The position numbers and the translations under genes were made by a program. Source: Zingiber officinale (lineage: Eukaryota > Streptophyta > Magnoliopsida > Zingiberales > Zingiberaceae). Taken from it: 64,000 bases of DNA. The notes beneath the pieces were generated by a model. The model was not told where the DNA came from. It searched no databases and saw only the letters and a list, made by a program, of their open reading frames with translations. The DNA lies in assembly GCF_018446385.1 (NCBI RefSeq), contig NC_055996.1:132790532-132854531 (forward strand), written 5' to 3'. Below are positions 3,050 to 64,000 of this stretch, in pieces. Positions within the stretch are counted from its first letter, which is position 1; each line of letters starts with the position of its first letter.

Positions 3050-4146
3050 TGTTGGATCGATCGCACGTGAGAGAGGGAGTGAATCACGTGGTTTTTGAAA
3101 TTTCATCTTTTTGGTTTTGAAAACGAAGTAGAGTAGCAGCGGAAAAGAGAAAAACAAAAGGCAAACACAAGAAGAACGCAAGTGATTTACTTCATTCGGA
3201 GCTTTCGGTGACTCCTAGTCCAAAACCCAGGTCCCGTGGACCTATAATGGGTAATTCACTATAAACCTCTTCCGGTACCTTCGGAAGAGGGAATAGAAAT
3301 ATAAAGAAAAGTTTAGAACAAGTGTAATACCCTGCACTTGTTCTTTTGTAGTATTTAATTACACAAATTAGATTTTACCGACACTTTAAAGATCGAAGTG
3401 AGCGCACTCGTGTCAATGTCGGTCTGCCAGCCACGATCGAAAGTCCTCGGAGCAGTCGTCGGGCACAGCAGCTTTGCAGTAGAGTGATAGCAGGAGCCCG
3501 GAGCAATGGGAAGCTTGAATAAACACGCAGTAGCTCGTATGGTTGTTCTTGTTCGTTCCTTGGTTGAACCTGCCTTATATAAGCTGTGGAAGGCGCCTTC
3601 AACTGGTCAAACTCTATCCCGAATGTCTCGACCCTTATCCGCAATGACATCCAAGTTTATCCTGCAGAAGGCGCCTTCCATGGCCATGGAAGGCACCTTC
3701 TATGAACAGTATGAAGGCGCCTTCCGTAGCTATGGAAGGCGCCTTCAGGCGTTGTTTACCCGAAGGCAATTTTCTCCTTTTTGCCCTACAAAATAACGTT
3801 AGTCCAAAATACCCTGCAAAATAAGTATTAGGACAATTCAATAATAATAAATAGTAGTAATTAGTTTTTATCCTCCCAGGACCAGGAACTAGTCAAGATC
3901 TCAGCTTAGGGATCCCAAATGAACCTAAACTGGACTAACGCCTATTGTCCCTTTAACCGGGACGCGTCCTGACTTGGTCACTCTCCTCCAGTGACTTACG
4001 TTAACTTTTCACTTGCTAGTCATCTAATTCTGATTAGACTACTCTCTTCCAAACGTCAAGTTCTATTTGGATTAACCCTTGGTCAAACTGACCAGATTTG
4101 GGTGCATTGTCAAACATCAAAATCCTAGAGGTCAATTACACCAACA
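3050..4146 (-). mobile_element. Solo LTR of a SIRE-like Ty1/Copia element, copy 1
   Basis: The stretch begins TGTTGG and ends CCAACA. It is flanked by GTATA (3045-3049) and GTATG (4147-4151), a 5 bp target duplication with four of five bases kept. The same end blocks occur at 17043-18053 and 60279-61755. The near-terminal block 'gagagagggagtgaat' matches the 'agaggggggtgaata' of the other copies, and the other end has 'gtcaaacatcaaaatcctag'. The orientation is minus, judged from copy 3, which keeps a polypurine tract. There is no coding sequence. A TATA-like box on the minus strand is at 3574-3583. Copia family is inferred from LTR ends and tract only. Confidence 0.75.
3588..3746. repeat. Palindrome cluster, motif GGAAGGCGCCTTCC (copy 1)
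   Basis: Five copies of the 13-14 bp palindrome lie at about 3588-3600, 3667-3679, 3688-3700, 3713-3725 and 3734-3746. The last four form two pairs separated by 8 bases. One copy has a single base change. The first lies 4 bases from the TATA-like box at 3574-3583, on its upstream side in minus-strand orientation. Confidence 0.9.
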
Positions 4147-4704
4147 GTATGCTGATGGGAAACACGATTATCCCTGAAGAAGTTTCTAAAAGAATATTCT
4201 TTGACATGTGGTTGTTATTCTGACAAATTATTAGGATTTTCTACTCAAGCTGTCGATTAAGTATATTCTGGATGACCTATAAAGTCTGTCGTCTTTATGT
4301 TTGTCCTTGCATTAAGCTGCTCAATTATGTTCTGCACAGTATTAGAGATCCATTCAACAAATAATATAATGCATTGAGTGTGCTGGAAATCTGCTCAAGA
4401 AGCCATATGATAAACTGTGCGTGTTGGACATCCGTTCGGGAATCAATATAAAGCTAAGTGCATTAGGCTCGACCAGCCCTTTATTTGGCTGGGCCTTTGC
4501 GAGGTTAAGTGCCTTAAGCCCGGCCGGCCTTTATTTGGCCGGGCATGTATAAAGATTAATAAGGCTAAGTGCCATAAGCCCAACCGACCTTTATTTGTTG
4601 GACATGCATGGAGAGATTTGTGAGAATTGGGGAGACCAACCATTTTTTGGACCAGATCAACATCTAATCGATTGCAAGATGGGTCAGACATTCTGGTTGG
4701 TCGT
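4147..4704 (-). mobile_element. Old minus-strand Tat-like LTR, piece 2 (U3)
   Basis: This stretch lies between the solo Copia LTR and the Tat element and carries no gene. It holds three imperfect units of about 60-70 bp at 4440-4640 (gctaagtgc...cccggccggcctttatttggccgggc). Continuity with 2558-3049 follows from the Copia target duplication. Continuity with 16621 onwards follows from the GTCGT duplication of the Tat element. Confidence 0.5.
4440..4615. repeat. Three degenerate tandem units, LTR U3
   Basis: Three units share 'ctaagtgc(a/c)ttaagcc', then a 'ccggcc' pair around 'tttatttgg'. Each unit is itself partly self-complementary (ccggcc...ggccgg), so it could fold. They are likely LTR promoter repeats. 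Confidence 0.6.
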
Positions 4705-5579
4705 TGATCCGGCGGTTAGAACAAGGGACCCCCATTTTGAGGGGGCAATGCCACGCTGGAGTCAAAAGGCTAAGGGGTCGACCGGAGAAGGAGGGGCCGA
4801 CAAGGCCAAGGGGCCGACCGGAGAAGGAGGGGCCGACCTCCCAACCGGCCCCGGCCGGCCGACCGGTGAATAGCCGAAGGCAAAAGGCGCCCCGACAGAA
4901 CTCGGGTTCCGACGCTCAATGGAACAGTAACAAGGAGACGAGCGGAAGACCTAAGAGAAGGTGACATACTGCTAACAGTCCCCACATAGTACCCTACCGA
5001 AAATATCCCGAGCATATCGATACCAACGGTAGGCCGGACGGGATGTGAGTGTCGTCCGGCGCGTAAGATGAGGGCTGGCCGGACGGACTCCCCGTCCAGC
5101 CGGCCTGCCGGACGCCCCGGGCTGTGGTCGGTAGAGAAGGACCAGAACATCTTATGACAGCTGTCAAGTCCTATGGCTAGGCCATACTCTAAGTCTGACA
5201 ACGAGGTGTTCTGTTGTCCCATCGAGGACATACTTGGACTGTAGCAGTATGGCGTCAGGTAAGCTTTCTGACAGACACATACCGAGGTATGGGCTGCGGA
5301 CATGTAGGCGCCTCGGTAGACGTGCAGGAGCTCTCTCACCACTCTATATAAAGAGCCTCATACTTCGCCGGAGGTACGGGGGATACAACTTTGGAGCCAC
5401 TTGTTTTACTGCTAGTTTGCCTGACTTGAGTGTCGGAGGGTCACCGCCGGGAACCCCTTCCCGGCCCGACTTCTGTGCAGGTTCGCCGGAGCTTCGTACG
5501 ATAAGCCGGGGATTTCCATCAGCGACTCGGAGAGCGCCACGTGCCCAGCGTCCGTTGATTCAGCATTCAGACAGGATCA
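4705..5579 (+). repeat. 5' LTR of the Tat element
   Basis: The LTR starts TGATCCGG and ends ...ACAGGATCA. A TATA-like box lies at 5345-5352. Short GC-rich duplications ('ggggccgaccggagaagg') occur near 4775-4830. Confidence 0.92.
5345..5352 (+). promoter_or_regulatory. LTR TATA box (TATATAAA)
   Basis: The same box is in the 3' LTR at 16381-16388, at the same distance from the LTR end. It fits the U3/R boundary. Confidence 0.6.
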
Positions 5580-5581
5580 AA

Positions 5582-5600
5582 TTGGCGCCGTCTGTGGGAA
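5582..5600 (+). other. Primer-binding site of the Tat element
   Basis: TTGGCGCCGTCTGTGGGAA begins 2 bases after the 5' LTR. It is the tRNA 3'-end complement type common in plant Gypsy elements. The identical block follows the left end of the second Tat element at 28268 onwards. Confidence 0.85.
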
Positions 5601-5624
5601 CGCTCCTGCATCCGAACGGAAGCA

Positions 5625-6998
5625 ATGGACGAAGCTGGACGACCGCATTCGGTAATGCTCTCCACAGAGGAACTTGATGCATTGATCGAGACAAGAGCTG
5701 CCAAACTTATGGAGCAGAGACAAAAGTCACAAGCTGAGCGGGCGGAGCAGCAATCAACATCAGCATCAGGTGGCCGAGCGGAGGCACCGCAGGCCACCGT
5801 TGCATTTCATCGGGCCCTATTCCGCACCCCCGAAGCCGCAGCAACTAATAGAGATCGGGGATCTTCTTCTGATGAAAGGCCTAGACGAGATGACAAAAAA
5901 GGAAAAGCACCCCGAGCGGACGCATCGCCCGAGCGGATCAACCGCCAATTTTCATAGGTCATTCTAAGAGACCCTCTGCCCAAGCACTATGTGCCTCCGA
6001 CGATCGGCGAGTACAATGGGATAACCGACCTGGATGATCATCTGGGTAAGTTCGATAACACAACTACTCTCCATCAATACACAGATGGAGTAAAGTGCCG
6101 AGTTTTTCTTACCACTTTATCGGGATCGGCTCAACGGTGGTTTCGGAGGCTGCCGGACGGATCCATCACAAGCTTCAAGGACTTCCGGACGGCCTTCCTC
6201 AACCACTTCGCAAGCAGTCGACGCTATCAAAAAACCAGCGTTAGTCTGTTCGCCATCAAACAAGAAGCCCGTGAATCGCTCCGAGCTTACATCCAGCGGT
6301 TCAACAAGGTGGCAATGGATATTCCAACGGCCACCTCGGAGACCATGATGAATGCCTTCACACAAGGCCTCGTGGATGGGGATTTCTTCCGATCGCTCAT
6401 TCGGAAGCCGCCCCGAGACTATGATCACATGCTACACCGGGCCAACGAATACATCAACGTGGTGGAAGCGCAGGCGGCCAGGAAAAAAGAAACTCCAACC
6501 GAGCGGGCTCCCATTGCCGAGCGGAAGTCGCACGCTGCCCATCCACCCAAAGGACCAAGGGCCGAAGCAATCCGCTCCCCCCATGCCAGGTCTCACGTGC
6601 AAGAGGTAGTTGTCGCCCGGCCCAAGCCAAAGAAGAAATGGACCCCGATGTTCTGCTCCTTCCACCGGACGGATACGCACAACACAAGGGATTGTCGAAG
6701 TCTTCCCTTCGTGGCTCATCCCGTTCCCCGGAATGGCGGCCGACGGTCTCCCTCAGTCGACAGGCGACAGAGAACTCATGAAGCCGATCGGACGCAGGCC
6801 GACAGGCGACGACAACAGACTCCCGATCGGCATCGCTCTCCGAGGCTGGAGAATCGTCGAATGTCAAGAGAACGGTCCCGACCCTCCGCTCGGGAAGAAG
6901 AAAATAGAGGCAATACTTCCCGAGGCGAAATCAACATCATAGCTGGTGGGCCAACCGAAGGAGACTCCAACCGAGCAAGAAAGGCAAGCGTCCGATAG
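5625..6998 (+). pseudogene. gag: gag region (capsid/nucleocapsid), fossil
   Basis: The stretch 5991-6998 is a long open frame with the retrotransposon gag core: 'VFLTTLSGSAQRWFRRLP', 'FASSRRYQKT' and 'MMNAFTQGL'. A basic, Arg-rich tail (about residues 220-335) follows, with a short CSFH...C-type cluster that may be the nucleic-acid-binding part. The stretch 5625-5957 carries the N-terminal part ('SPERINRQF'). It is the best-conserved gag match to the second Tat element (28312-29598). Confidence 0.85.
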
Positions 6999-7070
6999 CT
7001 CCAAATCCATGCAGTCGGCTGCAGCAGAGAGCGGGCGAGTAGACCCGAAATCAGTTTTGGGCCTGGGGAC

Positions 7071-7478
7071 TTGGAAGGAGTTAAAGTGCCCCACGACGAC
7101 GCTCTGCTCATCAAAGCGGTAATAGCCAACTACACTATTCACCGCATTTTTATTGACACAGGAAGCTCGGTCAACATAATATTCAAAAAGGCGTTCGATC
7201 AACTACAAATTGACCGTGCCAAGCTGCTTCCCATGACAACCCCCCTCTACGGGTTTACGGGTAATGAAGTCCTGCCGGTCGGACAAATCCGGATGGTTAT
7301 TTCATTGGGAGAAGAGCCGCTCAGAAGGACGCGTACAACAGACTTCGTGGTAGTCGACTCTCCTTCATCATACAACTTCATTTTGGGACGACCGGCTCTC
7401 AGCGAGTTCAGGGCGGCCGTCTTCACCTTCCACCAGAAGATCAAGTTCCCCGTCGAAGATAAAGTCAGAGAAGTATGA
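7071..7478 (+). pseudogene. pol: Aspartic protease region of pol, fossil
   Basis: The catalytic motif 'FIDTGSSVNIIF' occurs near 7150-7185, followed by 'LYGFTGNEVLPVG' and a later 'ILGRPAL' near 7384, the usual flap and C-terminal blocks of retropepsins. A matching block is at 29845-30230 in the second element. Confidence 0.85.
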
Positions 7479-7514
7479 GGAGATCAACTGGCAGCTCGAC
7501 GATGCTATGTTGAA

Positions 7515-9420
7515 ATGGTCCGAGCAGAAGGAAATTCCGCTCGGAAGTCGCCACGGATCGAGGTGAATGCTATAACTGAAAAGCCTCCCTCTTTAGTTTA
7601 CGGAGAAAAAGAGGAAGTGCAGATACACCCGACACGATCGGAGGCCACGACCTTCATCGCGTCCGATCTGAAGGCGAATCAGAAAAAGGAGGTGATCCAA
7701 TGTCTCCGAGGAAACCATGATATCTTCGTCTGGTCGACACATGAGCTGCCCGAAATTTCACCAATTATGGCGCAGCATGAGCTCCATGTCCGACCGGACG
7801 CTCGGCCAGTAAAGCAGAGAAAAAGAGATTTCAGCGCCGAGGAGAACGCCATCATCCGGGCGGAGGTGGAGAAGCTTCCGGACATGAGGTACAGTTCCCA
7901 GTGGCTGGCGAGCGTAGTATTAGTCTCAAGCCGGGCAACAAGTGGAGAGTATGCATAGACTTTCGGGATCTCAACAAAGCTTGCGAAGACTTTTATCCTC
8001 CGCCGGATAGATCAATTGGTGGACTCTCTGGCTCTGAATTAATCTGTATGCTCGACGCTTACCAAGGCTATCACCAAGTGCCGCTCGCCCTTGAAGATCA
8101 AGAAAAAGTCAGCTTTGTGACGGCCGACGGCACCTATTGCTATAATGTGATGCCGTTCGGATTGAAGAATGCGGGAGCCACATATCAGCGCCTGATGAAT
8201 AAAGTATTCAGAGAGCAGATCGGGCGAAATCTGGAAGTGTACGTGGACGACATTCTCATCAAGTCCGTTCGAGCGGCCGATCTTCTCAAAGACATGGAGG
8301 AAACCTTCCGAACGCTACGCAAATATGGAGTCAAGCTAAATCCCCAGAAGTGCCTGTTCGGAGCAAAAGGAGGGCGTTTCTTGGGGTACATAGTGACCGA
8401 GCGGGGCATCGAAGCAAATCCCAGCAAGGTGAAAGCTCTACAAGACATGCCGCCTCCAAGAAATACAAGGGAAGTGCAACGTTTGACCGGTCGGATAACT
8501 GCTCTGTCCAGATTCATCTCCAAAACTGCAGACCGGAGCCTTCCTTTTTTCAAAATCTTGCGCAAGGCCAATAAGTTTCATTGGGACGAAGAATGTGATC
8601 GGGCGTTCGAAGATTTGAAGGCATATCTGAGCTCTCTCCCGGTATTAGCCAAGCCGACTGCGGGTGAGCCACTTTATATGTACTTGTCTTCAACCGAGCA
8701 AGCAATTGACTCGGCACTAGTGAGGGCGAGCGGAGAAGAGCCTGTGTATTTCCTTAGTCATATCTTAAAAGATGCTGAATCTCGCTACACTGGGCTCGAG
8801 AAGCTGGCTTTCGCTCTGGTCCTCGCTGCTTGGCGCCTTCGTCCATACTTCCTGGCGCATACCATCATTGTTAAAACCAATAGCCCGCTCGGACGTGTAT
8901 TACTAAATCCAGAAGCGTCCGGGCGGCTCATCAAATGGACGACGGAGTTAAGTGAATTTGACATCCAGTACCAACCCCGCTCGGCAATCAAGGCGCAGTC
9001 CTTGGCAGATTTTGTGACCGAGGTGCAGAATTCAGAGCCAGAAGCTATGTGGAAAATATTTGTGGACGGATCATCCACTCTGCTCGGAAGCGGGATTGGA
9101 ATACTGTTGTTCTCCCCTCAAGAAGAAAAGATGCACTTATCCGTCCGGCTGGATTATAAAGCTACAAACAACGAAGCAGAGTATAGCCGGCTTGCAGGCA
9201 GCACGGCATGTGGGTGCCGGTCGGGTAACGCTTCATTCGGATTCCCAGTTGGCCGCTCAGCAGCTCTCTGGTACCTTCGAGATCAACAGTGTTCGGCTCA
9301 AGCTCTACGCTGAAGCCTTTGAGAGGCTTAAAGCCAATTTTATAGAAGTCATTGTCCGGAAAATACCTAGAGCAGAAAATCAAGCGGCCGATGAGTTAGC
9401 CAAACTCGCAAGCTCAATAA
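7515..9420 (+). pseudogene. pol: Reverse transcriptase and RNase H region of pol, fossil
   Basis: Reverse transcriptase blocks appear in order: 'RVCIDFRDLNKAC' (about 7950), 'LDAYQGYHQVPL' (about 8055), 'VMPFGLKNAGATYQR' (about 8150), the YVDD catalytic box (about 8240) and 'FLGYIVTERGI' (about 8380). The connection domain 'LPVLAKP...EPLYMYL' and RNase H ('FVDGSS...GIGILL', about 9060) follow. Confidence 0.9.
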
Positions 9421-9479
9421 CGTCGATCGCCATTCAGCAGCCAATTGAACAAGTATTGTTGGTGGCGCACGTCGACCGT

Positions 9480-10733
9480 ATGGAAGGCCTTACGTTTCCG
9501 AGCGACTGGAGAACACCCATCACGGAGTTTCTACGCTCGGGCGCCACACCGTCCGATCAGAATGAAGCCCAGCTGCTAAGGAGGAGAGTCGGTCGGTTCA
9601 CACTCATCGGCGATCAGCTTTACAAGAAGGCTTTCTCACGCCCGCTGTTGAAATGCGTGAGCTCAGAGGACTCGGCTTACATCCTCCAAGAAGTACATCA
9701 AGGATCATGTGGAGGACATCCGGGCGGACTATCGCTGGCTAAGAAAATCCTGCTGGCCGGGTACTTCTGGCCAACCTTACAAACAGACGCCGCTCGGACC
9801 GTGTCGACATGCCTTTCGTGCCAGAAGTACCATAACTTCTACCACCGACCAGCAGAGGAAATGAAGGCATCAACAGTCTCATGTCCGTTCGATCAGTGGG
9901 GAATGGATATCGTTGGTTCATTTCCTATGGCGACCGGACAGCAGAAATTTCTGCTAGTGGCGGTCGATTATTTTTCCAAGTGGGTAGAGGCCGAGCCGCT
10001 AGCCAGGATCACCGAACAGATGGTCAAAAAGTTCATATGGCAGCACATCATCTGTCGGTTCGGCATCCCTCGCCGACTGATTTCCGACAACGGGCGGCAA
10101 TTCACAGGAAAGTTGCTCGAAGATTGGTGCCAAAGCTATGGCATCGAGCAACACTTCACGTCCGTAGCATACCCCCAAAGCAATGGTCAAGCTGAAGTAG
10201 CTAATCAGGAAATTCTCCGTATTCTGCGTGCTCGGCTCGACCATTTGGGAGGAAGTTGGGTGGATGAAGTGTCGGGCGTCTTATGGGCCATCCGAACGAC
10301 TCCAAAGGAAGGGACAGGCGTCACGCCTTTCCACCTGGTGTACGGCGGCGAAGCGGTCATTCCTGTTGAAGTCGGCGTCGAGTCCGTCCGGATCCAGAGC
10401 TATGATGATGGCAATGCCGAACGGAGGAACATGGAGTTGGATTTGGTCGACGAGGAGCGAGCCAAGGCGTCCGTTCGGCTGATGGCGTATCGGCAGCGGA
10501 TGAAGCAAAACTACAACCGTCGTGTAATCCCCAGATCATTCCAGGTCGGCGACCTTGTCTGGAAGAAAGTCAAGCCGGTCGGCGATGTCGGCAAGCTGGA
10601 AGCTCCCTGGGCGGGCCCCTTCAAGGTTATCGAAAAGCTCCGCTCGGGCACTTACTATTTGGAGGATGAAGACGGACGGCAGCTGGATCGGCCATGGAGC
10701 GCGAATCATCTCCAGCCTTATCGAGCTGGATGA
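9480..10733 (+). pseudogene. pol: Integrase region of pol, fossil
   Basis: The N-terminal HHCC zinc-binding part is near 9690-9835 ('HQGSCGGHPG...CLSCQKY'). Core D,D,E blocks follow: 'WGMDIVGSFP' (about 9900), 'LISDNGRQF' (about 10078) and 'YPQSNGQAEVANQEI' (about 10170-10210). A C-terminal 'GDLVWKKV' basic fold is near 10550. No chromodomain is seen, which fits Tat rather than the chromovirus branch. Confidence 0.9.
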
Positions 10734-10839
10734 GAGGTGCACCGATGTAACTCATTTTTGTGTATATGCTAGTCGCCTATGCCCTTGTAATGCAGGAAGC
10801 AAAAAGATAAAAAACGCATTGAGCATTATCCGTCGAACG

Positions 10840-11055
10840 GCCTACTGCGTGAAGACCCCGTGTCGTTCGGCCGGGCATATAAATTACACGAGCCAAAGGC
10901 TCGAAGGCAAAGACCCCGTACCGTTCGGACGGGGTGTATATTATTCGAAGCAAGATCGAGGTCAAAAATCCCGCGCCGTTCGGCCGGGAGTATGTTAGCT
11001 GAGTCGGGGGCTCAATGACGAAGACCCCATGCCGTTCGGAAGTATATAATAAAAA
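10840..11055. repeat. Four degenerate ~65 bp units after integrase
   Basis: The phrase 'aagaccccgtgccgttcgg' recurs near 10850, 10910, 10970 and 11022, each followed by 'cggg...tata'. It is a separate repeat family from the array that follows. Confidence 0.7.
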
Positions 11056-11069
11056 TTAGCCTTAATAGG

Positions 11070-12590
11070 CCGTCGAGCTCCGACGTTAAATATCGAGAGA
11101 CGAGACGGCGTCTATAAACCCTCCGAGCGGAAGACCGTCGAGCTCCGACGTTAAATATCGAGAGACGAGTCGGCGTCTATAAACGTCCGAGCGGATGGCC
11201 GTCGAGCTCCGACGTTAAATATCGAGAGACGAGCCGGCGTCTATAAACCCTCCGAGCGGAAGACCGTCGAGCTCCGACGTTAAATATCGAGAGACGAGCC
11301 GGCGTCTATAAACCCTCCGGGCGGAAGGCCGTCGAGCTCCGACGTTAAATATCGAGAGACGAGCCGGCGTCTATAAACCCTCCGAGCGGAAGACCGTCGA
11401 GCTCCGACGTTAAATATCGAGAGACGAGCCGGCGTCTATAAACGTCCGAGCGGAAGGCCGTCGAGCTCCGACGTTAAAAATCGAGAGACGAGCTGGCGTC
11501 TATAAACCCTCCGAGCGGAAGACCGTCGAGCTCCGACGTTAAATATCGAGAGACGAGCTGGCGTCTATAAACGTCCGAGCGGAAGGCCGTCGAGCTCCGA
11601 CATTAAATATCGAGAGACGAGCCGACGTCTATAAACTTCCGAGCGGAAGACCGTCCGAGCGGAAGACCGTCGAGCTCCGACGTTAAAAATTGAGAGACGA
11701 GTCGGCGTCTATAAACCCTCCGAGCGGAAGACCGTCGAGCTGCGACGTTAAATATCGAGAGACGAGCCGGCGTCTATAAACGTCCGAGCGGAAGGTCGTC
11801 GAGCTCCGACGTTAAATATCGAGAGACGAGTCGGCATCTATAAACTTCCGAGCGGAAGACCGTCGAGCTTCGACGTTAAATATCGAGAGACGAGCCGGCG
11901 TCTATAAACCCTCCGAGCGGAAGACCGTCGATCTCCGACGTTAAATATCGAGAGACGAGCCGGCGTCTATAAACGTCCGAGCGGAAGGCCGTCGAGCTCC
12001 GACGTTAAATATCGGGGGACGAGCTGGCGTATAAAAACCCTCCGAGCGGAAGACCGTCGAGTTCCGACGTTAAATATCAAGAGACGAGCCGGCATCTATA
12101 AACCCTCCGAGCGGAAGATCGTCAAGCTCCGACGTTAAAAATCGAGAGACAAGCCGGCGTCTATAAACCCTCCGAGCGGAAGACCGTCGAGCTCCGACGT
12201 TAAATATCGAGAGACGAGCCGGCGTCTATAAACTTCCGAGCGGAAGGTCGTTGAGCTCCGACGTTAAATATCGAGAGACGAGCCGGCGTCTATAAACCCT
12301 CCGAGCGGAAGACCATCGAGCTCCGACGTTAAATATCGAGAGACGAGCCGGCGTCTATAAACGTCCGAGCGGAAGACCGTCGAGCTCCGACGTTAAATAT
12401 CGAGAGACGAGCCGGCGTCTATAAACTTCCGAGCGGAAGACCGTCGAGCTCCGACGTTAAAAATCGAGAGACGAGCCGGCGTCTATAAACCCTCCGAGCG
12501 GAAGACCGTCGAGCTTCGACGTTAAATATCGAGAGACGAATCGGCGTCTATAAACCCTCCGATCGGAAGGTAGTCTAGTTTCAACGGTAA
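11070..12590. repeat. 23-unit ~65 bp tandem array inside the Tat element
   Basis: The unit reads 'ccgtcgagctccgacgttaa', 'atatcgagagacgagccggc', 'gtctataaac', then a variable link and 'gagcggaaga'. I count 23 units. The link has three classes: ccctcc, cgtcc and cttcc. cgtcc units mostly end in 'gaagg' and ccctcc units in 'gaaga'. The array shows small local expansions, for example a duplicated 'ccgtccgagcggaaga' near 11643-11668. No gene is in the array. Confidence 0.95.
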
Positions 12591-12883
12591 AGTTTGACGG
12601 GCGGCCGGAGCCTATAAGGCCGCCAGACGAATGGTTTCCTGCGTAAACCTCGGTCGGGCCCGCCGTAACATTGTATGGCCGAGCGACTCCTTTACAAAAT
12701 GTACTTGGGGCACAAAAAACTTAAGACCAAGGCAAAAATCAAAAATTGGATGCTGGAAGAACGAGCAAATAACAAAAGGAGACAATTCATGCACGCCGAC
12801 CGGCGGATAGACAAAATTTATAATGTTTGCCCCGAACGGCATGCATACAGAAAATTACAAAATAACCTCACAGACACTCATTC

Positions 12884-13531
12884 TTAGTCATCAAAATTAA
12901 AAAGATGGTCAGGGATGGAGCCCATCATGGTCGCCAAGTCTTCGGTAGGGATGGACAGATCGGCAGGAACATGGCCCTTGTTTTTCATGTATTCCACCGC
13001 AACTTTGATTGCCTCCTCAAAAGTTAAGGAGAGCTTGTCGCTAAATTTCTCACCAAACTCGTCTGAGCGGACGAAGGCTTTGCGCACCCCCTCCGATCGA
13101 CCTGGCTCTCCATCTTGATACTCCTTGAGAGTAGTCTTGGAAGCGTCCAGAGCAGCTTGAAGATTTTGCAAGGCCCCTTCTGCTTTTGTCTGATCGGCGG
13201 AGCGACCCTCCCGTTTGGCAGTCAGTGAGGCGTCCAGCTCTTTCACCCGTTGCTCCAGCCCCCGATTTTTTACCTTCATCAGGTCCATGTCATCAATGGC
13301 CTTGAGCTTCCGGGTGGTAGCGGTCTTTACTTCTTTGTCCCGTTGCTTGACCAAGGCTTCTAGGCGGGCCACTTCGCTCGTCAAGCCAGAGGATTTACCC
13401 CGTTCGGCTTCCAACAACCTTTTGGCCTTCTCTAGAGCGGCCGTCGATTGTCTGTTGTCCCCTGCGGCCTTGAGCTTCTTCAGCTCGTCCTCCAGTTCGG
13501 CTAGGCGATTGCTGATGGCAATCTGCTCCAC
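12884..13531 (-). pseudogene. Antisense frame of Tat element, coiled-coil part
   Basis: This is a 215-residue open frame on the strand opposite to gag-pol. It is rich in Leu/Glu/Lys/Arg heptads ('LAELEDELKKLK', 'RLLEAERGKSSGLTSEVARL', 'LDASLTAKREG'), giving a likely long coiled coil, and it ends in an acidic tail ('HLFNFDD'). Tat-group elements are known for extra antisense reading frames near the 3' LTR. It belongs with the frame at 13501-15033. Confidence 0.75.
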
Positions 13532-15033
13532 CCAGTTCTACGAACGAATATGAGCAAGTTAGAGGCTCGATCCAAAAAAAAAAAAAAAACCAACAAGGCA
13601 AAGCGGCATACCCCGGTCGCCTGTTGAAGATTGATGTCGCCGAGCTGACTAGGAGTCATCATGGCGATTCGGAGACGAGCATCCTCCCAAGCTTTGGCGA
13701 GGGGACCCGTGAGTGTGATTTGCTGTTCGGGGATCACCGGTCGATCAGCGGCCGCCATGTATTCTTCAGACGGGAGGCGCAGGATGGTTTTTATCAGTTT
13801 TGGGCCGCTCGGATCACCCTTCGAAGCAGCGGCCTTACCGGACGGCTCACCGGTGGAGGAAGAAGGACGGTCGCCCAATCGCTTGAGGCGTCGCAGGGTT
13901 CGAGGAGGACTGGAGTGCGGCACCTCAGAGGTAGCCCTTGGAGAGCCTAGTGGCGTAGGGGTACTCTCTATAGAGACCGTCCCGGATAACACCAGAGCTT
14001 CATCGCCCCGCTCAGACTGTGGCTCATCAGATGGAGATGGTATAGATGATGACTCCGGCTGTTTGCACTTCCGAGTTGCCAGAGGAACGTCGTCGGCCGA
14101 ACGACCCTCTACCTCGGCTGGAGCAGAGGGTTCTATGTCGCCCGCGGCCTCGTCGTGGGAAGCAGGAGCGTCTAAGGCTTCAGGGACGGTTTGCGTCCCC
14201 TCATCCTCTTCGCTGGCCGGACTAGCTGAAGCCGAGCCCCGCTCGGCGACCTCCCTATTCTTTGCCGCTTCGATCTCGGCGGCTCGCAGTTTCAGCCGCT
14301 CGGTAGCCTTGGCGCGCCACATGACTTCAGCTGCAGAAGTAAAAAATAAATCAGTTAGAACAAAACAAACGGGATGATAAGGGAACTTACTCATACTGCA
14401 GGGCAGATCGGCCGGGGTAGAAGACAAGCCGAATATATACATTACTCCCGGGAGGAGCAGCTTGTCGATGTGATAGCGCTGGCCGACCAGCCGATCGGCT
14501 GCATGAAGGTAGGCCGCATCGCCTCTAAACTTGCCGAGCTCCGGTTGCGCTGGCATCGCCGTTTGCCATTTGATACGGAAGGTCGGCGGCTCGGGGAAAC
14601 ACACATAGAAAAAGTGTTCCTTCCAATGTTTATTGGAGCTCGGCATGTTATCAAAAAGAATGAAACCTATCCTAGATTGAAAAACAAAAGTTCCCCACTC
14701 GGCCTGCTTGGGGTAGTAGAAGTAATGGAAAGCTTTGGGGTCTAGGGGAATGCCGTTCAGTTTGAATAAGATTATCACCCCGCTCAGCAACCTTATGGAA
14801 TTCGGAACTAGCTGGCCGAGCGGGATGCGGAAGTATTTACAAACTTGCAAGAAAAACTTATGGGGTGGAAAGCGTAGCCCGGCCAAAAATTGGTCTCGGA
14901 ATAAAAGAACGGTGCCGGGCGGCGGTTCATGAGGCCGATCGGCCGGTGTGGCTAGTACTATGTGGTGGTCGGAAGGAATGTCATAAGTCCGAGCGAGACG
15001 GAACGCGTCTTCCTCGTCAAAACGGCTCTCCAT
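13501..15033 (-). pseudogene. Antisense frame of Tat element, Transposase_28-like part
   Basis: This is a 510-residue open frame on the minus strand. Residues 1-215 look like the 'putative gypsy-type transposon' (Transposase_28) family: 'FFRDQFLAGLRFP'-like, 'LGQLVPNSIRLLSGVIILF' and 'KHWKEHFFYV' blocks. Residues 240-410 are a low-complexity Ser/Glu/Pro linker. Its role is unknown. It is not a transposase in the enzymatic sense as far as known. Near-identical sequence is repeated in tandem at 31336-34130 in the second element, so the frame is a stable part of this family. Confidence 0.75.
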
Positions 15034-15717
15034 GGTCGTGTACCATAGACAAGGAGCGCCGCCGGTCGACTACGAGGTGCTAGTCATGGTCGAAAGACAA
15101 GAATGCGGGACCAAAAGGGAAGGTTCGAGCAAGGAATGGAGGGAAACCGACTGAATGAAACGATTAACAGAAAGAAGAAAACGTAGGGAGCGAGAAAAGG
15201 GGTCTTACGAGCAAAGGAGATGATCGACTGGGGCCTGGGGGTTGCCGAAGAGTTGAGGGGCAAGGTCGTCGGAGAAGGAAACGAACCGAGGGGCGTTGGA
15301 GGAGGGTGCAGCAACAATACAGCGGAAAAGGAGTCGCGGGCTTTATATCGCCGCCCGGGAGCAATCTCCACCGTCCGATCCAGGTCGTAAAGAACGAGGC
15401 CATCATCCAGCCGTTCATTTCAAACGGCGGCTGTCCCATCGGACGTGACGCCGCCACTATACGCTGACAAGCGCATGATCACCATGTGTCAGCAGGATAC
15501 TGGTCGCATTTAATGAGCGCCCCTTACCGTGTGCAGCACACGTGATGAGTAGTAGGGGAGAGAAGTGGGCATGGATTCCAAGAGAATACAAGGTACGAAC
15601 AAGATACCGTCGAACGGATGAACATCCCCAAGCCTGGCCGAGCGGACTAATGTAGCGGTTGTTACTCAATCAAATCGGCAGTCCAGTCAGTCGGACTTCG
15701 CCTCCTTCGACTAGACT

Positions 15718-15732
15718 TGAGGGGGAGGCAAT
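15718..15732 (+). other. Polypurine tract before 3' LTR
   Basis: TTGAGGGGGAGGCAAT directly precedes TGATCC of the 3' LTR. The same tract occurs at 34836-34848 in the second element. Confidence 0.85.
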
Positions 15733-16615
15733 TGATCCGACGGTTAGAACAGAGGACCCCCATTTTGAGCGGTCAATGCCACGCTGGAGTCAAAAGGCCA
15801 AGGGGCCGACCGGAGAAGGAGGGCCGACAAGGCCAAGGGGCCGACCGGAGAAGGAGGGGCCGACCTCCCAACCGGCCCCGGCCGGCCGACCGGCCGACCG
15901 GTGAATAGCCGAAGGCAAAAGGCGCCCCGACAGAACTCGGGTTCCGACGCTCAATGGAACAGTAACAAGGAGCCGAGCGGAAGGCCTAAGAGAAGGTGAC
16001 ATACTGCTAACAGTCCCCCACATAGTACCCTATCGAAAATATCCCCAGCATATCGATACCAACGGCAGGCCGGACGGGATGTGAGTGACGTCCGGCGCGT
16101 AAGATGAGGGCTGGCCGGACGGACTCCCCGTCCAGCCGGCCTGCCGGACGCCTCGGCCTGTGGTCGATAGAGAAGGACCAGAACATCTTATGACAGCTGT
16201 CAAGTCCTATGGCTAGGCCATACTCTAAATCTGACAACGAGGTGTTCTGTTGTCCCATCGAGGACATACTTGGACTGTAGCAGTATGGCGTCAGGTAAGC
16301 TTTCTGACAAACACATACCGAGGTATGGGCTGCGGACATGTAGGCGCCTCGATGGACGTGCAAGAGCTCTCTCACCACTCTATATAAAGAGCCTCATACT
16401 TCGCCGGAGGTACGGGGGATACAACTTTAGAGCCACTTGTTTTACTGCTAGTTTGCCTGACTTGAGCGTCGGAGGGTCGCCGCCGGGAACCCCTTCCCGG
16501 CCCGACTTCTGTGCAGGTTCGCCGGAGCTTCGTACGATAAGCCGGGGATTTCCATCAGCTACTCGGAGAGAGCCACGTGCCCAGCGTCCGTTGATTCAGC
16601 ATTCGGACAGGATAA
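15733..16615 (+). repeat. 3' LTR of the Tat element
   Basis: This pairs with 4705-5579 (about 97% identical by eye) and contains an extra 8 bp GC duplication (gaccggcc) near 15890. GTCGT follows. Confidence 0.92.
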
Positions 16616-16620
16616 GTCGT

Positions 16621-16901
16621 CTATAAATCCGGTCAGGCATGCTATCTTTTTAGTTTAAGAGTAAGGTGCTAAAACCTCTTACACTCGACCAACTCAAGGG
16701 TTGATCGGACTTCTTTCGCCCGGTTTGCAATTCGGTTGGGCTGGATCTGAAAATTTTAGTGTTGGCCGAACAATCAAGTCAGGTAGGGAATCCTCTCTTT
16801 TCTTAATTTTGATCATCATGTCATCTTAACTTTGACCGTCACGTCTCCTTAACCTTGACAACATCGTCATTTCCTAAGTCCATTTGTTACAACCCGTATC
16901 A
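16621..16901 (-). mobile_element. Old minus-strand Tat-like LTR, piece 3 (5' end of LTR)
   Basis: On the minus strand this piece begins TGATACGGG after a purine run (tttggggga, plus 16902-16911), and then shows a 'gttaaggagac...gtcaaagttaag' block like the starts of other Tat LTRs. It is the remainder of the LTR whose other pieces are at 4147-4704 and 2558-3049. 16902-17042 would be the last bases of its internal region. No gene is seen. Confidence 0.45.
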
Positions 16902-17495
16902 TCCCCCAAAGGTGATTGTTATTTCTATCATTAGGAAAAAAAATATGAATGTGATGGCGTATAAAAATTAAATATGATTGTTGGTGTAAAAAAAATTATA
17001 GGGAATTATGGATCCACGAAGTCAAACAAGTTGGGTGGAGATTGTTGAGACCGATGTGCCCGCTAGAGGGGGGTGAATAGCGTCTCACCAAAATCGATGG
17101 CTTCCTACGTATTCGTTAGTTGCACAGCGGAATAATACGAAATTAAATACGAATATAAAAGCTAAAAGATAAAGAAAGGAAATGCAAACCAATGCACGTC
17201 AATGTAACATGGTTCGGAGATAACTTGCTCCTACTCCACGGCTGTCCGTAAGGTGGACGATCCCGATCCTTCGGTGGATTAACCCCCGGCAAACTCCGGC
17301 TACTCAAGCAACTCCTTGTGGGTGGAGAAACCTCACCACAACACCAACCAAGAACACTTGGACACAAGAGAACCTTGAGCACGTTTGGTGACTACTAATT
17401 AGGCTTTAACCAAGTCTAATTTCGTCACCTTGGCCGGCCATCCCAAGCTCCTTCTTATAGAGCTTGGAACAAATCAGTAAGCTGATTTGTCCATT

Positions 17496-17600
17496 ACCAG
17501 TCAACTGGTCCTTGCACCAGTCGACTGGTGTCAGCCCAATGGCTCTCTCAACGACTCTCTACAGTGCACCAGTCGACTGCTACAGTCACCAGTCGACTGC
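17496..17600. repeat. Palindrome cluster, motif ACCAGTCGACTGGT (copy 2)
   Basis: Four copies lie at 17496-17509 (one base different), 17516-17529, 17568-17580 and 17588-17600. The last two lose the final bases to a 'ctacagt' repeat that continues to 17630. The cluster sits just upstream (minus orientation) of the TATA-like box, as in copy 1, but with an unrelated sequence. Confidence 0.9.
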
Positions 17601-17829
17601 TACAGTACTGCTACAGTGCTGCTACAGTAAACCCTAATTCTAGGATTTTACCTCGAGTACATTCACTCAGCACTCGTTCTCGCCCGACCAACCTAGACCT
17701 AGCCTTCTAGCCTCCTCCATCAGCCTTGCGTCCCTCGGATGTCTCCCCATCCTTCACGTCTTGCCTTCTGGAGCTTCCATCGGCCTTGTCATTGTTGTCG
17801 GGTCTTCCTTTGCCAAGAGGTCACGCCTC

Positions 17830-17945
17830 CGCGACTTCATCCATTGCCAAGACTTTTCTCCTTTGCCAAGATCACACTTGGACTTACGTTGCCAAGACTA
17901 CATGCTTGGACTTACACCGCCAAGACTCACCCTTGGACTTTCCTT
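17830..17945. repeat. Second inverted-repeat array of copy 2 (CCAAG...CTTGG)
   Basis: Three or more units of 'gccaagactnnnnncttggactta' type follow each other at about 17865-17942, each able to pair CCAAG with CTTGG. Equivalent regions of copies 1 and 3 carry other inverted repeats. Confidence 0.7.
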
Positions 17946-18053
17946 GTTGTACCTGTATCCTGCACACTCACAATGCATATCAAATACAACAATAAGCCTA
18001 ACTTAAACCTTTGCTCAAAAATCAAAACTTAGGGCACCTAGATTGCTCCAACA

Positions 18054-18780: not shown

Positions 18781-18841
18781 AGCGGATGCCATTCAACGCT
18801 TCAATGGGATTTTGCTTGCTTACCATAGGCCAATCCCCTAC

Positions 18842-19624
18842 ATGGCTGCCGCCCTCCCTCTCTCCGGCCGCGTAGCCATCGTCACCGGCGCCTCACGCGG
18901 CATCGGCCGCGCCATCGCCTCCCACCTTGCCTCCCTCGGCGCCTCCCTCGTCCTCGTCTACGCCTCCAACTCCGCTTCCGCCGATCAGCTCGCCGCCGAG
19001 CTCAACTCCTCCTCCCACCAATCCGTCCGCGCCATCACCGTCCGCGCGGACGTCTCCGACGCCGACGCAGTCAAATCGATCTTCGACGCCGCGGAGTCCG
19101 CCTTCGGCGGCCGCGCCCACATCCTCATCGCATGCGCCGGCGTCCTCGACGACAAGTACCCGACCTTGGCCGCCACTCCCGACGAGGACTGGGACCGCAC
19201 CTTCTCCGTCAACACCCGAGGGGCCTTCCTCTGCTGCCGGGAGGCCGCGAATCGGCTCGTGCCCGGCGGCGGCGGCCGGATCGTGTGCATCACTTCCTCG
19301 GCAGTGGGAGCGCTCCCGCCCGGGTATGGGGCGTACGCGGCGTCGAAGGCGGCGGTTGAGGCGATGGTGAAGGTGCTGGCGAAAGAGCTGAAGGGGAAGG
19401 GGATCACGGCCAACTGCGTGGCGCCGGGGCCGGTGGCGACGGAGATGTTCTTCGCGGGGAAGAGCGAGGAGTTGGTGAAGAGGATAGTGGAGCAGTGTCC
19501 GCTGGGACGTCTGGGGGAGGTGGGGGACATCGCGCCGGTGGTGGGTTTCCTGTGCGCCGACGGCGGTGAGTGGGTGAACGGGCAGGTGGTCCGAGCAAAC
19601 GGAGGCTTCGTCATCACCGCTTGA
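18842..19624 (+). CDS. Short-chain dehydrogenase/reductase, NADPH-dependent aldehyde reductase-like
   Basis: This is a single-exon gene of 260 residues, the normal size for classical SDRs. It has the cofactor motif TGASRGIG (residues 15-22), the 'ACAG' version of the NNAG motif (97-100), catalytic Asn124, Ser152, Tyr165 and Lys169 (YAASK), and 'APGPVATEMF' after the active site. The closest family I recognise is the plant NADPH-dependent aldehyde reductase group, which reduces reactive carbonyls, often in plastids. No clear transit peptide is seen, so location is open. A 35-residue in-frame extension from 18737 is rejected because the TATA box lies inside it. GC is very high, typical of commelinid intronless genes. 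A decayed copy follows at 22507. Confidence 0.93.
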   Translation: MAAALPLSGRVAIVTGASRGIGRAIASHLASLGASLVLVYASNSASADQLAAELNSSSHQSVRAITVRADVSDADAVKSIFDAAESAFGGRAHILIACAGVLDDKYPTLAATPDEDWDRTFSVNTRGAFLCCREAANRLVPGGGGRIVCITSSAVGALPPGYGAYAASKAAVEAMVKVLAKELKGKGITANCVAPGPVATEMFFAGKSEELVKRIVEQCPLGRLGEVGDIAPVVGFLCADGGEWVNGQVVRANGGFVITA

Positions 19625-19649
19625 TCCATCTCGCTTTCCTCGAGGAATT

Positions 19650-19655: not shown

Positions 19656-19679
19656 ATGTTTTTTTTTTAAATTGTGTGG

Positions 19680-59064: not shown

Positions 59065-59767
59065 TAGGGCTGTAAACAAGCCGAGGCGAGCCGAATTTTG
59101 GGGTGTTCAAGCTTGTTTGATAAGATAACCGAGCCGAGCTTAAAATGAATCAGGATTTTGAAATGAGTGTTCAAGCTTGGCTTGGTTTATTTTTTATGAG
59201 TTCAAGCTTGGCTTGAGCTTGGCTTGAGCTTGGTTCATTTAGATGTTATCAAGCTCTCAATTCAAGCTTGGCTTGAGCTTGGTTTGAGTTTGGTTCGTTT
59301 AGATGTTATTAAGCTCTCAATTCAAGTTTGGGTTGAGCTTGGCTTGAGCTTGGTTCGAGCTTGGCTTGAGTTTGGTTTGAGCTTGGTTCGTTTAGATGTT
59401 ATCAAACTCTCAATTCAAGCTTGTTTGATTGTTTGAAACTTTTAATTGTTTGATTAGTTATTAAGATTGATAATTTAAATTTATTTATTTATTTTATTGT
59501 TTATTTAGCATATTGAAAAAAAATTTATTAATAAATATTGTTCGTGAACATTGTTCACGAATGTTCTTCATGAACATTGTTCACGAACATTGTTCATGAA
59601 CGTTAACGAGCTGAACACATATGTGTTCAAGTTTGTTTGTTTAGCTTAACGAGCTGTTCAAGCTTGTTTGTTTAATTAATATAATGTATATTGAATGAAC
59701 ATAAACAAGCTCTTACCAAGTCGAACACCAAGCTTGTTCACAAACGCTTGGTTCATTTACAACCCTA
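59065..59767. mobile_element. Non-autonomous hAT element, 703 bp, nested
   Basis: It starts TAGGGCTGTAAACAAGCCGA and ends ...CATTTACAACCCTA. An exact 8 bp duplication TGTACAAC flanks it (59057-59064 and 59768-59775). Inside are about three units of 60-75 bp with 'caagcttggcttgagcttgg' (59170-59420) and self-complementary 'gttcacgaacattgttc' units (59540-59605). It has no real open frame. Confidence 0.93.
59170..59605. repeat. Direct and self-complementary repeats inside the 703 bp hAT
   Basis: 'ttagatgttat(c/t)aagctctcaa' recurs at about 59239, 59300 and 59392, with 'ttggcttgagcttgg' between. Then 'gaacattgttcacgaa' type palindromes recur four times. Such subterminal repeats are the usual transposase-binding sites in hAT elements. 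Confidence 0.8.
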
Positions 59768-60790
59768 TGTACAACATCCCCTCTAGTTCAACATCATTCA
59801 ACATCACATTCAACTACGTTCAAAAATCGTTCATTCATGGATGCATCTAGCAGAAGTGGTAGCTCTCCTTCCACCACTCAACCTCACACATCATCTCCAT
59901 CCAAAACACCAATCATTCATGAGGAAGTAGTAGATATTGGATGCAAAAGGAAAAAAGTAGCAGATGTATGGTCACATGCCAAGAAAATTATAAAGAGAAA
60001 TGACAAAAATGAGGTAATTGCTGTTGTTGCTGTTTGCAATTATTGCAAAACTGAAGTTCCTACCCATAGCAGAACACATAGGAATAATGGCATTGATGGG
60101 CATGTGAAGAAATACAAAAAGAATCCTCATAATGCGGTGAAGTCAGGCTCTTCTCAACCAATCTTAACACAGTCATCCATGAATAATGCTTTGACACCCC
60201 ACATCTTTAACCAAAAAAAGCTTGAAGAAAAGGTTGTCGCATTTGTTGTTAAAGATGAGATGTCATTTAGGGTAGTGGTGTTGGGACCGAAAAGTAGCTA
60301 GAGGGGGGGTGAATAACTCTTCGCGTACTAGGTGCTCGTCGTTGCTTGTTTCTTCAGAGGTATGCAGCGGAAATACAAGAAACACAAACACACAACGCTA
60401 ACAAGGATGGTTTACTTGGTATCCACCTCACAAGAGATGACTAGTCCAAGGATCCACACCTACTCACGCACCCTCCACTATGAATAACACTCATTTATGG
60501 TAACTACCAAAGACGGAGAAGCCCTACAAGTTCACACTACAAGAAGAAAGGGAAAGGATACACAAATACAAGCAAAAGCTTACAATGAGTATAGAAAACC
60601 CTAACCCTAGCTTTCTTCCTCAGCTGTAGAGCCGCCTCTTGACTTGGAAGACCTCCAAGAACCCTCAAGAACTGACGATCTGAACTTTGTGGAGAAACTC
60701 TGGAGTTCCTGTGAAGATCTGAGATGAATCATATAAGTACTGCTGAAGGAAATGCTTGCCTGTAGCTAAATACGACGCCAACGGTCGGAT

Positions 60791-61070
60791 CTCGATCGAT
60801 TGGACTGCTCCCAATCGATCGGGGAGGCTTTGGATCGATCAACCGATCGATCCAGAGCGCCTCTGTGCTCTCTGAAATAGCCTGGATCGATCGGCTGATC
60901 GATCCAGGGCTTATCGCGCACAAACAGCAGCTCCCAATCGATCCACTGATCGATTGGGACCTCTGGATCGATCCACGGATCGATCCAAAGGTGTTCTGTC
61001 CGTGGGGACTCACCCGATCGATCAACTGATCGATTGGGTATGATTCAATCGATCAGCTGATCAATCCAGA
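60791..61070. repeat. Palindrome cluster, motif GGATCGATC-N4-GATCGATCC (copy 3)
   Basis: Six to seven inverted pairs are present, each with arms of 8-10 bases around a 4-base centre (aacc, ggct, cact, cacg, aact, agct). An example is 60831-60854. Some arms read CCCAATCGATC...GATCGATTGGG instead. The cluster lies about 55 bases upstream (minus orientation) of a TATA-like 'catataag' at 60730-60737. Confidence 0.92.
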
Positions 61071-61317
61071 TCTTGGTTTTTGCCCAAAAGCAAGTCCAAA
61101 GCCCCCTAAACCAACATCCAGTCAACCATGACTTGTTGGTACATAAAACCTAGCATCCGGTCACCCTTGACCAGCTAGGACTCTCTCATCAAGTGTTTGG
61201 TCAATCCCTTTGACCCACTTGGACTTTTCTCCTCTTGCCAAGTATCCGGTCAATCCCTTTGACATACTTAGACTTTCACCAGATGTCTGGTCAACCTTGA
61301 CCCATCTAGATTTCCCT

Positions 61318-61545
61318 GTGCCTGGCTTCACTCACCAGGACTTCCCTTCTGCCTAGCTTCACTCACTAGGACTTTCACCTGACTTCACTCACCAGGATTT
61401 CCCTTCTGCCTAGCTTCACTCACTAGGTCTTCTCATCTGCCTGACTTCACTCACCAGGACTTTCACCTAGCTTCACTCACTAGGGTTTCCTTCTGCCTGG
61501 CTTCACTCACCAGGACTTTCACCTAGCTTCACTCACTAGAATTTT
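61318..61545. repeat. Eight-unit ~28 bp array with inverted arms (CCTGG/CCTAG type) in copy 3
   Basis: Alternating units read 'cctgg-cttcactca-ccagg' and 'cctag-cttcactca-ctagg', each followed by 'acttt(c)acct' or 'cttcccttctg'. Each unit can pair its ends around the constant 'cttcactca'. Confidence 0.88.
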
Positions 61546-64000
61546 CAATCAAGTATCCAGTCAACCTTGACCTACTTGACTCTCCTTCACACAACCTGAT
61601 CAGAGGGGAATTGCTCTAAACAATCTCCCCAAATGAGCAACTGCACCTGCACTCGTCCCTATCATCGAAGTCTTGTATTGTCAAACATTGAAACCCAAAC
61701 CAAGACTCAAGCTTGGTCAACTAGGTCAACCTTGACCTGAGGGATATTGCACTAACAATCTCCCCCTTTTTGATGTTTGACAATACCACATGTAAGTTAG
61801 ACTAATCCCATAGCCTAAACCTCTTTCATGCCACTAGGTAATGAAGGCATAAGTTAAACCCTTCATTCTCCTCCTAAGAGGGCAAACTCCCTCTAGGTAA
61901 TGAAGTCCTTCATTCTCCTCCTAAGAGGGCAAACTCCCTCTAGGTAATGAAGTCCTAACTTAAACCCTTCAAGTGGAAGGGGCAGGGTTTGTAGAGATGA
62001 TGAAGGAAGCTCAACCTCGATTCAAGATTCCCAACAAAAAGAAAATTGCATCTCTTGTATGGGAATTATATGCAGTAGAAGCGGCTAAGATAAAGAGTAT
62101 CATTGGTGATCAAAGGGTAAGTATCACGACTGATACTTGGACCTCAATTCAGAATATCAATTACATGGTAATTACAGCTCATTTCTTAGACAATGATTGG
62201 AAGTTGCATAAGCGAATAATAAATTTCACCAAGATTACCTCTCACAAAGGAGATGACATTGGTAAAGTTTTAGAAACATGCTTGAGCAATTGGGGGATAG
62301 ATAAAGTTTTCACTATCACAGTTGATAATGCTAGCACGAATGATAAAGCAATGGAGTACATGAGAAAGAGGCTAAAGGAAATGGGTACTCTATTATTTGA
62401 TGGTAAGTACTTGCATTTTAGATGTTGTTGTCATATTATAAATTTAATTGTCAAGAGTGGGTTGAAGTTTCTTAATGAGTCAGTTTAGTCCATTAGAAAT
62501 TGTGTGAAGTATATTCACTCTTCTGGGGCACGGTTGGACCAATTTAGAGAGTGTGCTATCCTATTAAAGATGGATAAAATGTCAACCGTTCCAATGGATG
62601 TGCCTACGAGATGAAATTCCACTTATACAATGCTTTTTGTTGCATACAAGTTTAAGAAAGTGTTTGGTAGGATGACAGAGAATGTTTAATTTATTGAATA
62701 CTTTGAAGAGATAGATGGTTTGGAGAAGAAAAAGAGAGTGGGGCCTCCTATGGAAAAAGATTGGGAGAAAGCATAATTCTTTGTGAATTTTCTTAAGAGG
62801 TTTCATGATACTATATTGCAACTTAGTGCTACCAAGAAAACTACATCACCCTTGATTTGGGAGGAAAGAGTTGCAATGAGGACAATTATTGATGAGACAA
62901 TACTTGACACTACTGATCCTTCATTGCAAGAAGTTGCTAAGAGAATGGAGAGTAAGTTCAAGAAGTATTGGGGTAATCTTGAGAAGGTGAACAAGCTTGT
63001 TTTCCTAGGTCACATTCTAGATCCTCGTTATAAACTTCAAATGATTGGAATCCATTTGGGAGATATGAAATTGGATGCTAGTAAAATACAATCCTTTGTT
63101 GACAGTTTAAAGAATTGTCTAATGGAGTTATATCATGCATATAAAGGGAATTCACCTTTGAATGATATTAATGGGATGGATGATGGTGATATAGACAAAG
63201 ATTTGATGGAAATGTATAAGAATGATCACATTAAACTAAACTACCATTTGAAAATGACTCAAGTAAGAAAAACTCAAAAGCAAGCAGAAATAACCAATGA
63301 GGTGGACAAGTACTTCTCAGATCCTTTTGTGAAATGGAGTTCAAGTTTTGATAGTTTGGAATGGTGGAAAGGGAATACAACTTCATTTCCAGTCATTTCT
63401 AAGATTGTCAAGGATATTTTTTCAATCCCTTCATCTACTGTTGCTAGTGAGAATGCTTTTAGCCTTGGGAGGAGGGTTGTAGATCCATTTAGGGCATCAT
63501 TGCATCCTAAAATGGTGGAGGCACTAGTGTATACTAGTGACTGGCTTAGTGGTGAAGAAATTAACTTATACAAGGAACCGACGGAAGATGAATTCAACTT
63601 TTATAAGGATTGTAAAGAAGTGGTCACAAGTAAGTAAATATTTAACTTGTTTATTAATTTTTATGAGTACTTTGATTTATTGTTGGTGCTTGGTATATAA
63701 TATATATTTATGGTTTTATGTAATTGTTGTATTTCTAGCTACTCTTTAGTTGGGTAAATCTAGTAATCAGTAACTATAAAAGATGGCATGTTCATTTGGA
63801 TTTATTGTTTGATCAGATAATTGCTTTAGTTTTTCATTTGTAATTTTTAATCTTGGTATAGACTATAGATTGTGCTTATATAATAGTTATTGTTTGTAGG
63901 TACCCTCATTGACATGACAAAGTAATGCATCCTCCTCAAGTGTAAACTCCAAAGTCCAAAGGTCTCATTAAAAGAATAACTAATTTATATAGTTGTTTAA

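Follow-up and report, generated by a model that had tools for sequence, protein, structure and literature searches.

Palindrome arrays upstream of TATA-like boxes in three probable Sirevirus long terminal repeats of Zingiber officinale

Three long terminal repeats and their palindromes

We analyzed 64,000 nucleotides of Zingiber officinale DNA (NC_055996.1, positions 132,790,532 to 132,854,531 of the forward strand; hereafter the window), with a focus on three minus-strand long terminal repeats (LTRs), LTR1, LTR2 and LTR3; all motif, palindrome and k-mer counts below refer to this window and these LTRs. An earlier note on this DNA, made from its letters alone, had pointed to repeated palindromes near the presumed promoter of each LTR, and such sets are indeed found just upstream of a TATA-like box on the minus strand in all three.

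LTR1 (3050–4146, 1097 bp, TG...CA) is a solo LTR of a Sirevirus-type element, flanked by a target-site duplication (TSD) of GTATA/GTATG in which four of five bases match. LTR2 (17043–18053, 1011 bp) is also a solo LTR, with a perfect TSD (GAGAT/GAGAT). In both cases the TSDs adjoin the LTR ends given in the earlier note, which were therefore right. LTR3 (60279–61757, 1479 bp) lies inside a hAT transposase gene, and its insertion is flanked by a perfect 5-bp duplication, AGTGG (left copy 60274–60278, right copy 61972–61976). The start previously assigned to LTR3 stands, but its end had been put at 61755; the real LTR edge is at 61757. Past this edge come AT and then CTCCCCCT, which is the polypurine tract (PPT) on the minus strand. 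Read in the minus-strand sense, all three LTRs start with TGTT and end with CAACA. A polyC signal lies near the 3′ end of LTR2 (CACCCCCCTCTAGC) and of LTR3 (CACCCCCCCTCTAGC), its C run starting 31 bp from the end in both.

The LTR1 array (3588–3747) has five copies of a palindrome with the core GAAGGCGCCTTC, four of them exact and one with CpG changed to CpA, and its segment at 3667–3746 is a 22-bp tandem repeat of 3.5 units. The array was correctly recognized in the earlier note, but the exact 14-mer proposed for it, GGAAGGCGCCTTCC, does not occur; the true unit is the 12-mer core. The LTR2 array (17496–17601) has four copies of the ACCAGTCGACTGGT type, with the core CAGTCGACTG (three exact, one with CpG changed to CpA), and is in part tandem with a period of 20 bp. 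The LTR3 palindrome stretch (60785–61067) contains six copies of the GGATCGATC-N4-GATCGATCC type, three of them exact, plus one inside-out relative at 60793–60821 that was recognized by eye. The 4–7 copies per LTR first estimated thus become five, four, and six plus one relative. All three arrays are on the minus strand.

In the LTR3 unit at 60935–60956, the outer letters of both arms have changed together (CAATCGATC...GATCGATTG), and symmetry is kept despite the change in sequence. Within the cores, which were chosen after viewing the copies, the only changes are from CpG to CpA, in 1 of 5 LTR1 copies, 1 of 4 LTR2 copies and 1 of 12 LTR3 half-sites; these tiny counts fit what is expected from decay of methylated C, and substitutions of other types occur outside the cores. 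The ratio of observed to expected CpG is 1.19 in the LTR3 palindrome stretch, versus 0.12 and 0.55 on its two sides.

The TATA-like boxes lie 3′ of the arrays at 52%, 59% and 69% of the length of LTR1, LTR2 and LTR3, all on the minus strand. That of LTR1, TATATAAG (3574–3581, sense positions 566/568), starts 7 bp past the array, and that of LTR2, TATAA within CTATAAG (17455–17459, sense position 595), starts 37 bp past it. In LTR3 the box is TATAT (60731–60735, sense position 1023), 50 bp past the palindrome stretch and 58 bp past the outermost palindrome. LTR1 and LTR2 each have an extra TATA word closer to the 3′ end.

With at most one mismatch, the LTR1 14-mer has four matches, the LTR2 14-mer four and the LTR3 motif three, every one in its own LTR and none elsewhere in the window, which bears out the earlier observation that the palindromes are alike within an LTR and different between LTRs. 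When two mismatches are allowed, the LTR1 14-mer has five matches in LTR1 and two outside the LTRs, and no motif matches an LTR other than its own; the LTR2 motif matches once in LTR3 at three mismatches and once in LTR1 at four. With up to four mismatches, matches outside the LTRs number 30 for the LTR1 14-mer, 19 for the LTR2 14-mer and 1 for the LTR3 motif.

That the palindromes are chance products or common sequence of the genome might seem to be favored by the 44 perfect palindromes with arms of at least 6 in the window, 36 of which lie outside the three LTRs. Against this stand the confinement of each motif, at zero or one mismatch, to its own LTR and the distribution of local clusters: 24 of the window's 165 palindrome seeds have at least four copies within 300 bp, and outside the LTR arrays these are restricted to tandem-repeat arrays (~11.6–12.5 kb and 59.2 kb) and a duplicated inverted repeat at 21.8 kb. 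No seed reached four local copies in 20 dinucleotide-shuffled windows, where the maximum was three, seen once; palindrome clusters of this kind are therefore not due to chance, and we regard an origin as chance or common sequence as extremely improbable. Tandem repeats can also produce palindrome clusters (the peak local seed count is 10 in the tandem arrays versus 6 in the LTRs), and the LTR1 and LTR2 arrays are partly tandem themselves.

Relationships among the LTRs and to Sireviruses

Members of one LTR family are expected to be no less than 80% identical across 80% of their length (the 80-80-80 rule), and LTR1, LTR2 and LTR3 fail this rule by both BLASTN and global alignment. BLASTN finds short pieces, the best by E-value being 21 bp for LTR2–LTR3 (E 0.003), 23 bp for LTR1–LTR3 (E 0.14) and 22 bp for LTR1–LTR2 (E 0.48), and the longest 32 bp at 75% (E 0.44). 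In global alignments, matches over the shorter length amount to 583/1011 (57.7%) for LTR1–LTR2, 710/1097 (64.7%) for LTR1–LTR3 and 673/1011 (66.6%) for LTR2–LTR3; the shuffled baselines are 55.9%, 61.6% and 65.0%, and the real pairs are merely 1.6 to 3.1 percentage points higher. Judged by these alignments, the three are not copies of one family, as had been claimed. Distant kinship or shared composition is nevertheless present among them: alignment scores exceed all of 30 mononucleotide shuffles for every pair. The three LTRs have four 8-mers in common (two overlapping, one not co-linear), whereas 100 mononucleotide shuffles gave 0.44 on average and never more than 3. They also share microdomains, namely the right arm of an inverted repeat, which is degenerate in LTR2, the U3 block GGCAA...GGAGAAAA, TTCCGCTG at 89–94 bp from the end and, in two of the three, the polyC signal.

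The common layout, these short co-linear words and the alignment scores, together with the large uniformity of each palindrome set inside its own LTR, are what one would point to in arguing for a single family in which whole palindrome sets are exchanged quickly from copy to copy and serve as a changing code for recognition. The short BLASTN pieces and the small excess of identity over shuffled sequence speak against such a history, as do distinct Sirevirus elements with distinct motifs already in print (Bousios et al., 2010, PMC2829016), and we consider it very unlikely. The flanks belong to separate LTR families, so code switching inside one family fails as an explanation, and the shared microdomains point to one genus. 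Nor does rapid replacement of the whole set have to be assumed; each family would have amplified its own unit, giving sameness within and difference between LTRs.

We think it probable, then, that LTR1, LTR2 and LTR3 represent three different Sirevirus (Ty1/copia) families, each with a palindromic repeated-motif array of the kind kept upstream of the TATA box in U3. Elements used for comparison include the Osr elements, which are from rice. Sirevirus LTRs are described as very divergent, with conserved microdomains (Bousios et al., 2010, PMC2829016): AGGGGGAG-AT/TG at the 3′ LTR, a flanking inverted repeat, a polyC signal close to the end of the LTR, and a TATA box in mid-LTR preceded by a cluster of a palindromic repeated motif. 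For 13 Sireviruses, Table 3 of that paper gives 12 distinct motifs of this palindromic kind, in clusters that precede a TATA box, OPIE-2 and PREM-2 sharing one, and the motifs differ inside one plant, as between HOPIE and OPIE-2/PREM-2 in maize and likewise between Osr9 and Osr8/Osr10 (PMC2829016).

At LTR3, the Sirevirus PPT octamer AGGGGGAG, AT and the TG of the LTR start are present to the letter at 61756–61767 on the minus strand, within a PPT/3′ LTR junction that reads TTGTCAAACATCAAAA-AGGGGGAG-AT/TG (61756–61783, minus strand; compared with PMC2829016); LTR1 and LTR2, as solo LTRs, are without a PPT. The left arm of the LTR3 inverted repeat, GTATTGTCAAACATCAAAA, abuts the PPT, and its right arm is at sense position 67. 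The right arm lies at about sense position 27 in LTR1, and LTR2 has a degenerate arm at 29 (all arms were compared by eye); the published position averages 28 in the LTR (PMC2829016). The TATA box is on average 37 bp past the motif-bearing CpG island in the published elements (PMC2829016). LTR anatomy, TSDs, arrays and TATA position are thus seen in all three LTRs, the PPT/attachment junction in LTR3 and the polyC signal in two of the three.

The arrays resemble the published Sirevirus motifs (PMC2829016) in being palindromic, repeated, of one kind per element and located in U3, a short distance ahead of the TATA box. They differ in having no CGG-CCG core and in their 4–7 copies per LTR, which fall in the lower part of the published 3–14. 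The closest parallel for the former is Tnd-1, whose motif ACAATCGATTGT (PMC2829016, Table 3) is also without CGG-CCG and has CAATCGAT in common with the LTR3 variant units; each LTR3 unit, however, is a double palindrome interrupted by a 4-nt spacer, and a TATA-like box is present in LTR3 but lacking in Tnd-1 (PMC2829016). The arrangement of a motif set ahead of the TATA box is thus already described for Sireviruses (PMC2829016), contrary to the earlier note, whose author knew of no such system; what differs here is that the three motifs lack the core shared by most published ones.

Several observations weigh against the assignment to Sireviruses. The CGG-CCG core, found in 12 of 13 published motifs and treated as defining (PMC2829016), occurs in none of our three palindrome types, and the LTR1 and LTR2 arrays, with observed/expected CpG of 0.74 and 0.52, are not CpG islands, unlike that of LTR3; because of these two differences we class the arrays as a variant of the Sirevirus pattern. 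What PMC2829016 stresses is the likeness of motifs between elements, not their difference, those of Osr8, Osr10, Vitis and Inga being called nearly identical. Published motif-bearing elements have at least 8 copies in all, with 3–14 per 3′ LTR (PMC2829016), as compared with 5, 4 and 6–7 per LTR here, where any linker copies are outside view. The LTR3 array starts 691 bp into the LTR, past the published 200–400 bp (PMC2829016), and no run of at least five C was found near the 3′ end of LTR1. Finally, 10 stretches scanned from the window's 70 open reading frames (ORFs) gave no Sirevirus gag-pol, the reverse transcriptase stretch being of the RVT_1 type, and it is therefore non-coding features on which Sirevirus membership is based. 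The window does not include a 5′ LTR/internal junction for any of the three elements, and the one exact copy there of the Sirevirus primer-binding-site 9-mer TATCAGAGC, at 27879, has no preceding CA/ATTGG.

When viral contigs were searched, neither the PPT/LTR junction nor the LTR3 tail motif (see below) nor the LTR3 palindrome matched any stretch. In prokaryote genome contigs, AAAGGGGGAGATTGTT matched at least 117 stretches, which we take as chance matches; a Sirevirus context was flagged in 1 of 117, in a Rhizobium record, and it lacked the upstream inverted-repeat arm.

Possible roles of the arrays

The arrays are most simply read as a putative U3 cis-regulatory region, an activator array by the TATA box with symmetric sites for host DNA-binding proteins, and may in part have grown through duplication of a single palindromic unit in place. 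Because transcription includes the U3 of the 3′ LTR, the palindromes should fold in RNA. The predicted folds are strong, with z-scores of −8.45 for the LTR1 array, −5.08 for the LTR2 array and −12.03 for 60780–61075 in LTR3, and in each case none of 200 shuffles was as good. Silencing by small RNAs may draw on such folded RNA, a proposal already made for Sireviruses of maize, and hairpin-derived small RNAs from the arrays are plausible on this model. The two roles suggested in the earlier note, sites for a dimeric regulator and hairpin sources of small RNA, have both been proposed in print for Sirevirus palindromes (PMC2829016, PMC5311732 and PMC10760457). In maize, the Sirevirus palindrome region is a small-RNA hotspot, according to the cited passages of PMC5311732 and PMC10760457, both referring to Bousios et al. 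(2016). Those LTRs, as described there, share with ours a palindrome-rich regulatory part with strong predicted structure and variable sequence; the small-RNA mapping is a maize result.

The palindromes might also have no role as protein sites and simply be tolerated by-products of a hairpin-prone U3, multiplied as reverse transcriptase slipped or switched templates. The tandem periods of 22 and 20 bp inside the LTR1 and LTR2 arrays would suit such an origin, as would the symmetric LTR3 variants exemplified by the unit at 60935. The constant position by the TATA-like box, in all three LTRs and in published Sireviruses (PMC2829016), argues the other way, and on balance we find the by-product explanation rather unlikely. 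The three LTRs would extend the Sirevirus trait to three more families, none with CGG-CCG, which suggests that these promoters keep symmetry and position and not one common core sequence.

The LTR3 insertion, its host gene and neighboring elements

The insertion that contains LTR3 spans 60279–61971 between its AGTGG copies, and so ends 214 bp outside the canonical LTR edge. This 214-bp linker tail (61758–61971, minus strand) contains 47-bp tandem units holding AGGAGGAG-AA-TGAAGG and in the sense direction starts with TGAAGGG, directly adjoining the target duplication. Two repeat units in it have AGGAGGAG-AA-TGAAGG at matching phase; aligned without gaps, the first 47 bases of the tail match one unit at 32 of 47 positions and the other at 12 of 47. 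The terminal AGGGGGAG is the only exact PPT copy in the tail, the two AGGAGGAG copies being one mismatch off, and most of the linker is missing.

One reading of this structure is that plus-strand synthesis of the parent cDNA began at an upstream PPT, so that the cDNA carried a longer LTR when it integrated: priming would have occurred at an upstream PPT-like octamer, two bases would then have been removed before integration, and the internal region would have been lost afterwards by LTR recombination. We are evenly divided on this reading, which rests on a single case, and the insertion does not include the repeat unit where priming would have taken place. We also considered that the LTR3 family has since adopted the outer PPT, so that its LTR is now longer, and that the extended insertion arose when the 5′ LTR and the internal region were precisely deleted; the latter requires a break at TG, at PPT+2 phase and beside the TSD. 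A further candidate is that the LTR of this family is simply 1693 bp long; that a canonical junction lies within this length speaks against such an LTR having been there from the start.

If priming at an upstream PPT is correct, extra Sirevirus PPTs can prime productive integration and LTRs can grow by a PPT switch. Upstream PPTs have been argued to be without a proper attachment site (PMC2829016), and the LTR3 insertion would then be a counter-example. The same paper leaves the role of multiple PPTs open (PMC2829016), and the LTR3 insertion looks like the product of one. In a search of the open-access literature for insertions primed in this way, the words "upstream PPT" appeared, among the matches listed, in PMC2829016 only. 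Literature searches on LTR palindromes yielded nothing further among the matches listed, and passages of PMC3185511, PMC9073684 and PMC3414828 were not relevant.

The hAT-type transposase gene interrupted by the LTR3 insertion spans 59705–63637, and its joined flanks form one open frame across the site. Pfam hAT domains were matched at 62777–63637 only; the two stretches nearest the insertion gave no hAT match.

Elsewhere in the window, an RVT_1-type LTR retrotransposon, which we take to be Ty3/gypsy-like, occupies 4704–16630, with direct repeats 92–98% alike and pol ORFs at 7781–10733. It also contains a minus-strand ORF (13501–15069) that matches Transposase_28 and a 65-bp tandem array of ~23 units (11067–12569), several with a palindrome-like CTTCCG-NN-CGGAAG. 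A related element at 28065–35667 has end repeats that are inverted, not direct (arms of 61 and 96 nt), and a repeat with a period of 1285 bp (31334–34204). Between these elements, 18821–23129 holds a gene for a short-chain dehydrogenase together with another copy that appears to be broken, the two being 82–84% alike over the stretches found.

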